Positions 28,950-61,068 of a stretch of DNA of 64,000 nt are shown here, piece after piece. The position numbers and the translations under genes are program-made. This DNA is from Desulfobotulus mexicanus. Its GTDB lineage: Bacteria; Desulfobacterota; Desulfobacteria; Desulfobacterales; ASO4-4. Location of the stretch: positions 1 to 64,000 of the forward strand of contig NZ_VDMB01000010.1 in assembly GCF_006175995.1 (NCBI RefSeq), in the 5' to 3' direction. Numbering within the stretch: the first letter of the stretch is position 1; every line of letters begins with the position of its first letter. The notes under the pieces are model-generated. The model made no database searches and was not told the origin of the DNA. It saw only the letters and a program-made list of their open reading frames with translations.

Positions 28950-29062
28950 TTCAGAAGCTTGTTTTCGATATGAGACAGTCGGACTGTTTGTGAGTGATCT
29001 TGCAATCGTTTCGTCATGAACAAATGGCCTGATTGTCTATGTACCTGATTGAAGGTATTCAA
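28950..29062 (+). repeat. decayed copy of the foldback element
   Basis: GTGATCTTGCAATCGTTTCG here matches the left arm of the full copies (GTGATGTTGCAATCGTTTCG in the copy at 33.7 kb) with one change. The following CAAATGGCCTGATTGTCTATGTACCTG resembles their right arm. The central hairpin is missing. Exact ends cannot be set. It lies directly beside the intact copy. Confidence 0.5.
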
Positions 29063-29090
29063 TTTACTAAAGAAAAATTGTGCTAAAAAG

Positions 29091-29438
29091 GTAATTGTTC
29101 AGCACAGTTTATTCTGAAATTCCAATGCTGCAATTGCAGCAGCTTCGTATTGTTGCAAGGTACCCTGGCTGTTTGCAAGTGACATTGTAATCGTTTCGGA
29201 TCAGAGCTTCGCAGGCCTGTGCGAAAGAAGCGGCAAACTGTCTGAGCCGCCACAAAGGCAGCGTACTAAGGCTTGCTATGGTAATAAAAAAGTGCATCCT
29301 GCCTGTGGCGGGGAGTTCTTGCCGCTTCCGCACAGGGCAAGAAGCTCCCGAAAAAGATTGCGTCACAGGCAAATAGTCTGGGTGCCTGTGCATCTGTCTG
29401 GCAGCTATGGTACTTGGGAAATTGTGCTTAACAATTAC
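29091..29438 (+). mobile_element. foldback (MITE-like) element, copy 1, 348 bp
   Basis: Terminal inverted repeats GTAATTGTTCAGCACAGTTT (left) and the reverse complement of GTAATTGTTAAGCACAATTT (right). Exact 8-bp direct repeats CTAAAAAG flank it at 29083-29090 and 29439-29446. The interior is a nested palindrome: GCCTGTGCG...AAGCGGCAA at 29215-29236 pairs with 29319-29338, and CCGCCACA...GGCA at 29247-29260 pairs with 29299-29311. No transposase is encoded. It lies between the converging darP and metallo-beta-lactamase genes, so it disrupts nothing. Confidence 0.85.
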
Positions 29439-29518
29439 CTAAAAAGTTACATTGCTTATCGTTTTTTGCTTTTTTCTCCATGGGGCAGGAACAAGGTCTG
29501 CCCCTGCAATTTCCGGAC

Positions 29519-33641: not shown

Positions 33642-33989
33642 GTGACTGTTCAGCATAATTTATTCCGGAATTCTACCTCTGTAATTGCAGAAGCTTCGGG
33701 CTGTGGCAGGGCACCCTGGCTATTTGCCAGTGATGTTGCAATCGTTTCGGATTAGAGCTTTGAAGGCCTGTGCGAAAGAAGCGGCAAACTGTCTGAGCCG
33801 CCACAAAGGCAGCGTGCTTAAGCCTGCTATGGTAATCAAAAAGCTTACCCTGCCTGTGGCGGGGAGTTTTTGCCGCTTCCGCACAGGGCAATAAGCTCCA
33901 GAATAAGATTGCGTCACTGGCAAATAGCTTGGGTGTCTGTGTATCTGTCTGACAGGTATGGCACTTGGAAAAGCGTGTTGAACAATTAC
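33642..33989 (+). mobile_element. foldback (MITE-like) element, copy 2, 348 bp
   Basis: Same orientation and same length as copy 1, with long identical blocks including the central hairpin arms. The left end GTGACTGTTCAGCATAATTT has drifted from the consensus; the right end is the reverse complement of GTAATTGTTCAACACGC. No 8-bp duplication is visible, so this copy is older or rearranged. Its right end lies 43 bases before the start of the HD-domain gene. Confidence 0.8.
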
Positions 33990-39809: not shown

Positions 39810-39835
39810 TAAGGTCTGCAAAAGAAACAGATGTC

Positions 39836-40180
39836 GTAACTGTTCAGCACAGTTTTCCATATCATACCTGCAAGACAGATGCACAGGCTCCAGGCTATTT
39901 GCCCGTGACGCAATCTTATTCTGGAGCTTCTTGCCCTGTGCGGAAGCGGCAAAAACTCCCCGCCACAGGCAGGATAAGCTTTTTGATTGTCATAGCAGGC
40001 TTAAGCACGCTGCCTTTGTGGCGGCTCAGACAGTTTGCCGCTTCTTTCGCACAGGCCTGCAAAGCTCTGATCCGAAACGATTGCAATGTCACTTTCAAAT
40101 AGCCTCGGAGCCTTGCAATAGTATGAAGCTGCTGCAATTACAGCATTGGTAGTTTGGAATAAACTGTGCTGAATAATTAC
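39836..40180 (-). mobile_element. foldback (MITE-like) element, copy 3, 345 bp, inverted
   Basis: The same element in the opposite orientation to copies 1 and 2. Ends are GTAACTGTTCAGCACAGTTT and, inward from the right, GTAATTATTCAGCACAGTTT. The flanks CAGATGTC (39828-39835) and CAAATGTC (40181-40188) are 8-bp direct repeats with one mismatch. It lies between the thiolase stop codon and the hairpin that should terminate that gene. Confidence 0.85.
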
Positions 40181-40225
40181 CAAATGTCTTACAAGGTCAG
40201 GCTGCACAGGACAAATATGTGTTCA

Positions 40226-58123: not shown

Positions 58124-58251
58124 CCTCCAGGGGTATCCTGACCGGCCGCTGCGTAACATACCATCATGAACCTCGTCAGATCCGGAAGGAAGCAGCGATA
58201 AGTGAAACGGTATGTGTCGTGGATCGATCCCGGTCAGGATACCCTTGGAGG
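58124..58251 (+). ncRNA. ffs: signal recognition particle RNA (4.5S-like)
   Basis: The conserved core GTCAGATCCGGAAGGAAGCAGC, split as GTCAGA plus CCGGAAGGAAGCAGC, is the Ffh-binding helix 8 with its GGAA tetraloop. The ends pair over more than 20 bases: CCTCCAGGGGTATCCTGACC with GGTCAGGATACCCTTGGAGG. Length about 128 bases, a little longer than E. coli 4.5S RNA. T-rich sequence follows as terminator. Exact ends estimated from the stem. Confidence 0.9.
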
Positions 58252-60925: not shown

Positions 60926-61020
60926 GTAATTATTCAGCACATTTTATTCTGAAATGCATGCTTTGTAATTATAGTGGATTACTACAGTTTGGGTGCCTAT
61001 ACAGCTGCCTTTCCGTCATT
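60926..61020 (+). repeat. decayed copy of the foldback element
   Basis: Left end GTAATTATTCAGCACATTTT and the following ATTCTGAAAT match the ends of the full copies. GGGTGCCTAT then resembles their right arm. Most of the hairpin is gone and the right terminal repeat is missing; the right limit is approximate. Confidence 0.6.
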
Positions 61021-61068
61021 AGGCCTTGCAAATGAAAAAGATATTGAATAAATACGACTTTCTTATAC

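Follow-up and report, generated by a model that had tools for sequence, protein, structure and literature searches.

Several families of bacterial MITEs have been described. According to the accessible text of one review, Chunjie of Geobacter uraniireducens, QMITE1/2 of Coxiella, Correia and ERIC are short, carry terminal inverted repeats and direct repeats, occur in many copies, lie in intergenic DNA, come in size variants and form a stable hairpin, and stable stem-loop transcripts are described there as typical of MITEs (PMC10969869). MITEPsy1 is marked 'IS5?' and has a 4-nt duplication in the accessible part of PMC3189936. As for IS66 insertion sequences, they make 8-bp repeats and usually start with GTAAGCG, as far as the accessible text of PMC11946415 goes, so that the start GTAAYTR dealt with here is a variant. 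We found no IS66-derived MITE in the open-access literature, including the accessible parts of PMC3189936, PMC9769881 and PMC12888890, and no report on Desulfobotulus repeats as judged by titles.

We analyzed a family of repeats in the genus Desulfobotulus, starting from a window, i.e. the whole stretch of DNA under study, that spans bases 1-64000 of contig C10 of Desulfobotulus mexicanus (draft genome of 3.83 Mb in 69 contigs, G000). Two other Desulfobotulus genomes were compared with it, namely that of the sister species Desulfobotulus alkaliphilus ASO4-4 (G001) and a third one (G002). The name of G001 comes from 7 of 13 loci that match sequences recorded for ASO4-4 at 100% over more than 2 kb, the comparison covering 80 of 116 recorded stretches. 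The family has repeated ends, which its size variants retain; target duplications of 8 bp, insertions of one element into another and empty sites were also observed. A sequence-only reading of the window had reported three full copies, the third inverted, which was borne out (Table 1). These copies show 86-89% identity in ungapped comparisons of 291-300 nt, and a BLAST search with copy 1 retrieved copy 2 at 85% and copy 3 at 88% identity. The length of 348 bp given for all of them is right for copies 1 and 2 but not for copy 3, and the shared end GTAATTGTTCAGC is exact at the left end of copy 1 only, while the other ends differ (GTGACTGTTCAGC and GTAATTGTTCAAC for copy 2, GTAATTATTCAGC and GTAACTGTTCAGC for copy 3). 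Copy 1 indeed lies between exact 8-bp repeats; of the 8-bp duplications announced for the family, that of copy 3 is imperfect (7/8) and the flanks of copy 2 show 0/8 agreement. Moreover, the count of three had overlooked a fourth, short element, whose right end is weak (5 mismatches out of 15). The predicted RNA fold of copy 1 runs nearly from end to end (-168.1 kcal/mol). In an Rfam search of the window the element matched no family at the gathering score, and the only hit, located elsewhere, was a bacterial small SRP RNA (RF00169, positions 58140-58238).

Table 1. Elements of the family and their target-site duplications in the window.
Feature	Position	Strand	Basis or remark
Copy 1, foldback MITE, 348 bp	29091..29438	+	repeat comparison, BLAST, ends
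Copy 2, 348 bp, flanks without visible target duplication	33642..33989	+	repeat comparison, BLAST, flanks
Copy 3, 345 bp; same site occupied in D. alkaliphilus, interior different	39836..40180	-	
Left target-site duplication of copy 1, CTAAAAAG	29083..29090	.	
Right target-site duplication of copy 1, CTAAAAAG	29439..29446	.	
8-bp target duplication flanking copy 3, CAGATGTC	39828..39835	.	
Target-site duplication of copy 3, CAAATGTC (7/8)	40181..40188	.	
Copy 4, 130-bp short form, flanks GCCTTTCT / GACTTTCT (7/8)	60926..61055	+	
Decayed older element without core, left border approximate	28951..29090	+	copy 1 inside its right terminal repeat

Examination of the surroundings of copy 1 revealed a nested insertion. 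When copy 1 and one CTAAAAAG are removed, the locus reads AAATTGTGCTAAAAAGTTAC, which agrees with AAATTGTGCTGAACAGTTAC at 18 of 20 positions, and the last four bases of this terminal repeat (TTAC) are found beyond copy 1, at 29447-29450. The right terminal repeat into which copy 1 jumped belongs to an older, decayed element. At the corresponding locus of D. alkaliphilus (L130), 17 bp stand in place of 512 bp (window 28951-29462); since both this relic and copy 1 are missing there, the locus does not count as an exact empty site for copy 1 by itself. The copy 2 site is occupied in D. alkaliphilus by a long form between CCGTGACC repeats, itself nested in an older copy, and the copy 3 site by an element with another interior surrounded by a perfect CAAATGTC pair; in G002 the latter site is a short intergenic stretch devoid of termini.

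Beyond the window, the claim of an 8-bp target duplication was confirmed: the flanking 8 bases agree at 6/8 or more in 46 and at 7/8 or more in 43 of the 64 copies from the three genomes whose flanks were paired, a set that includes some mispaired ends. When the flanks were re-paired 2000 times, a mean of 3.4 copies, and 10 at most, reached 6/8. The agreement peaks at a width of 8 only (0.77, compared with 0.30-0.44 for widths of 4-7 and 9-13). The remaining 18 copies fall below 6/8, copy 2 of the window being at zero. The 43 duplications with at least seven matches contain 77% A+T, compared with 49% in the window.

Sites lacking the element in a relative, which had been named as a further check, were also found, with one junction that is exact and two that are less so. 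In the exact case, the element of L023 lies between TAAAAATC repeats and D. alkaliphilus (L031) has a single TAAAAATC, in an ungapped junction of 729 bp with 92% identity. Conversely, the L031 element is missing in L023 (89%, 2 gaps, with one TTCCGTCC for TTCAGTCC), and the 145-bp element of L108 is missing in L007 (87%, 3 gaps). Taken together, the 8-bp duplications, the empty sites and the nested insertion make transposition of this family well supported. Two other candidate empty sites were not counted, namely that of the L130 element at 1801-2152, where neighbouring bases are also missing from the window (49 gaps), and that of L055, where the flank matches correspond to another intergenic repeat. 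The latter, which surfaced on searching joined flanks for empty sites, consists of GACTCAGCCACAGCTTGCTGGTCAG... followed by a GGGCAGGC..GCCTGCCC palindrome and is present in the right flank of L055 and in L107, L115, L118, L142, L174 and others of D. alkaliphilus. Yet another repeat (GTAACACGGCGTGG / CCACGCCGTGTTAC, plus a close variant) adjoins the right flanks of L027 and L067 and the left flank of L030; the end of the copies abutting it reads GTTGCTGTTCAGCAC or similar and not GTAAC.

We estimated the size of the family from its terminus GTAAYTGTTCAGCAC, tolerating at most 2 mismatches. In the D. mexicanus genome, this pattern was counted 101 + 99 times, compared with 4 + 3 for the reversed control, 206 + 214 times in D. 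alkaliphilus (control 2 + 4) and 24 + 22 times in G002 (control 0 + 3). The roughly 200 termini of D. mexicanus, against a control of 7, thus suggest about 100 elements; half the excess of termini over control amounts to ~97, ~207 and ~21 elements in the three genomes, respectively. By our own arithmetic, the family makes up under 1% of the D. mexicanus genome. A search of this genome with copy 1, in which 40 of 166 first-look candidates were scored, listed 42 matches, of which 40 are element places and the other 2 are short and self-reverse. No element match was obtained in the 55 genomes outside the genus among the 58 searched (D. mexicanus included), and the three positive ones are all Desulfobotulus. 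An exact 21-mer of the core was found in 116 stretches of a collection of 84,980 species that possibly does not include the D. mexicanus genome, and all 80 stretches listed belong to D. alkaliphilus. Among the genomes searched, the family is confined to the genus Desulfobotulus.

Two of the 40 places in D. mexicanus are a single copy divided over two contig ends (L011 at the end of C16 and L018 at C11:517-862), with 344 of 346 bases in agreement; AAATAATC precedes the element on C16 and comes after it on C11. Bases 1-516 of C11 match, in reverse complement, the sequence flanking a different copy on C1 (516/516 identical), so that this is either a chimeric contig end or the result of recombination between copies. 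One or more contig ends of the assembly that are broken or chimeric are explained by the family.

What enzyme could move these elements? The sequence-only reading had suggested a non-autonomous element moved by an IS66-like transposase. The element is indeed mobile and non-autonomous, duplicates 8 bp and has ends of IS66 type, but its own genome contains no IS66 transposase detectable with the Pfam profile PF03050 or as a match of a 471-aa protein. PF03050 is present in 24 of 58 genomes and gave no hit in G002; D. alkaliphilus contains a single frame for an IS66 transposase (533-537 aa), which is of another type, with ends GTAACTTCTCAATAA and no 8-bp duplication. The 471-aa protein is a PF03050 transposase (1.1e-45) of the genome G012, flanked by GTAACTATTCAGCAAAAAAC on one side and GTAACTATTCAGCCCGGTTT on the other, with 8/8 duplications. 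Relatives of it were detected in 15 of 116 genomes of Desulfobacterales and, at 1e-20, in none of the three Desulfobotulus genomes. IS66 elements with ends agreeing over 13 bases, of the kind it had been proposed to look for, exist in other Desulfobacterales genera but were not found in these three genomes.

Both ends and 8/8 duplications could be recognized at 7 of 24 fetched IS66 loci, from five genomes (L258, L259, L260, L261, L264, L273 and L278, with L258, L273 and L278 being copies within one genome); the other 17, which are cut by contig ends, fragmentary or unresolved, do not show both together. Six of the seven complete loci, from four genomes, have GTAACTATTCAGC at one or both ends, and the seventh has GTAACTACTCAGG. 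The best IS66 end agrees with a MITE end at 17-18 of 20 bases. Regarding the interior, three MITE copies compared with 54 IS66 loci showed no likeness beyond chance (best E 0.17), hence the likeness concerns the ends only and descent from IS66 is unsupported. We infer that the enzyme is of IS66 type from the ends and the duplication, which match IS66 elements of other Desulfobacterales, and the proposed link between MITE and IS66 appears well supported by analogy.

One could also assume that the MITE is moved by a transposase of another family that likewise duplicates 8 bp. Other IS families also make 8-bp duplications, and this assumption would fit with a genome without IS66 transposase. On the other hand, the MITE end matches, over 13 bases with two variable positions allowed, IS66 ends of four genomes of other genera that are bordered by 8/8 duplications, and we consider a mobiliser outside IS66 unlikely. 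We rather propose that these repeats are very probably a genus-specific family of non-autonomous transposons (MITEs) mobilised in trans by an IS66-type transposase. On this view, an IS66-type DDE transposase acting in trans would recognize a terminal inverted repeat of ~13-15 bp (GTAAYTRTTCAGCAC), place the element for the most part in intergenic DNA rich in A+T and duplicate 8 bp, and the palindrome would have been inherited along with the element.

The elements are terminated by inverted repeats, with the consensus GTAATTGTTCAGCACAGTTT drawn from 160 ends of 80 copies; position 5 is T in 87 and C in 64 of the 160 ends, and position 7 is G in 99 and A in 61. Besides the main form of 345-352 bp, other forms range from 117 to 479 bp. 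In 8 regions there are forms of 479, 412, 326, 177-179 and 117 bp that share these ends, and further ones were seen among 35 regions picked by their termini alone, for which the best end pair was retrieved in 33 of 35, several pairs being plainly wrong. The 177-179-bp forms are without most of the core, and coreless forms of 135 and 190 bp are bordered by 8/8 and 7/8 duplications; the core is thus not needed for insertion. A full-length version coding for a known gene had been considered as a possible objection. No such version was seen: in 80 copies, closed frames span 54-111 aa, and three frames of the window overlapping copies had no Pfam match.

Long forms bear hairpins of 67-72 bp, CCGGCACTCAAG...CTTGAGTGCCGG, with variable interiors and at two fixed sites; they are present, for example, in L051, L052, L055, L107, L110 and L113. 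With exact ends, 23 such hairpins were counted in D. mexicanus, 96 in D. alkaliphilus and none in G002. The idea that they form an independent second mobile family was rejected: all 63 distinct hairpins examined (50 from D. alkaliphilus and 13 from D. mexicanus) have the flank of one of the two element sites under a loose match (at most 3/10 or 2/7 mismatches), with 3 fitting both, and 49 of them are located between two recognized termini. A speculative view, which we hold to be quite improbable, is that of a modular foldback element, in which a core less variable than the arms and the transposase-recognized ends would be combined with exchangeable 67-72-bp hairpin cassettes having invariant CCGGCACTCAAG/CTTGAGTGCCGG ends and restricted to two sites, and in which the long forms would adopt a multi-armed cruciform or RNA structure that itself serves a function in transposition, in replication or for the host.

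The folding of the elements had itself been taken as unusual for a simple MITE and as a hint of selection for a cruciform or an RNA fold. ERIC and other bacterial repeats are palindromic throughout. The unusual character of an end-to-end fold is also doubtful in view of the stable stem-loop transcripts described as typical in the accessible text of PMC10969869. As concerns selection, we examined an alignment (A1) of 80 copies, 3 of them from G002 and the other 77 being the whole set of 78 full-length ones except L018, which lies at a contig end, against 500 shuffles, using the majority-consensus fold of these copies (126 pairs). A host-recruited repeat, with an RNA or cruciform acting in regulation or as a terminator and kept by selection on its fold, would be favoured by three of the values obtained: 92.7% of cells are paired, compared with 92.3 +/- 0.1 in shuffles (reached by 0/500), the covariation score is 0.075 compared with 0.072 +/- 0.001 (7/500), and 66 cells show double changes compared with 50 +/- 8 (5/500). 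However, the excess is tiny, and related sequences can exceed shuffles in this test without any structure. Pairs with double changes number 23, compared with 19.2 +/- 2.5 in shuffles (50/500), and further pair types 99, compared with 97.1 (155/500). Structures slid by 1-3 columns gave 20-24 double-change pairs and 39-66 double-change cells; only 36-47% of their cells are paired, as expected since the fold was derived from the consensus. In RNAalifold, the covariation term contributes -1.17 of -75.26 kcal/mol and a double change is kept in 7 of 69 pairs.

The core (~180 bp) also speaks in favour of such a role, with a mean p-distance of 0.067 compared with 0.173 for the arms in 38 copies of D. 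mexicanus, the columns of the core 21-mer being excluded, and core columns paired in a fold predicted on the same alignment vary less than unpaired ones (0.033 versus 0.112). Fetching copies by the core 21-mer could have created this conservation as an artefact; this was rejected, as it persists (0.097 versus 0.296) in 10 copies chosen by their termini and as the 21-mer columns had been left out for the 38 copies. Yet the core is no slower than the arms in two of three orthologous pairs and much slower in the third (core versus arm identity of 0.967 versus 0.993, 0.945 versus 0.963 and 0.961 versus 0.813). Over the whole element these pairs are 0.977, 0.896 and 0.945 identical, with flanks at 0.785/0.959, 0.946/0.906 and 0.947/1.0; in these three pairs, orthologous copies change roughly like their flanks. 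The core may have spread or been exchanged among copies later than the divergence of the arms.

The position of the elements relative to genes was assessed with a simple purpose-written codon-usage gene finder on the 100 of 132 elements having the required 700-bp flanks. Ninety-seven are intergenic, of which 64 lie between tandem, 17 between convergent and 16 between divergent genes, close to the share of intergenic bases (64% tandem, 14% convergent and 22% divergent); there is no bias in the orientation of neighbouring genes. Given the marginal covariation, this unbiased placement and the two orthologous cores that are no slower than their arms, and with coreless forms also found between duplications, we regard a repeat recruited by the host as very unlikely. 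Altogether, there is no clear sign of selection on the fold, nor proof against it, and the balance leans towards a palindrome that is inherited.

The repeats of Desulfobotulus are a new MITE family, belonging to a well-known kind of genetic parasite and ordinary in kind. They add a large family with a plausible IS66 mobiliser, which counts about 100 elements in D. mexicanus and about 200 in its sister species D. alkaliphilus, at both shared and private sites, and they form a natural series on which to address the question of whether the long palindromes of bacterial MITEs are under selection or simply inherited. A first parallel can be drawn with the IS66 insertion sequences of L258, L259, L260, L261, L273 and L278, which have 13-base ends GTAACTRTTCAGC and an 8-bp duplication as in the MITE. 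These IS66 elements, from Desulfobacterales, measure ~1.7-1.8 kb and have a single large ORF coding for a transposase of ~470-500 aa, whereas the MITE has none. Another parallel concerns MITECca01 of Cardinium, which derives from IS982: according to the accessible text of PMC9769881, it is a non-autonomous IS derivative with 169 copies; like it, the Desulfobotulus MITE is non-autonomous, present in many copies and mostly intergenic. Its parental IS is still in the Cardinium genome, whereas no matching IS was found for the Desulfobotulus MITE. Finally, the family shares with Chunjie, QMITE1/2, Correia and ERIC the features listed for these at the outset, but differs from them by its ends and its genus, and by extra hairpin modules carried at two fixed internal sites.
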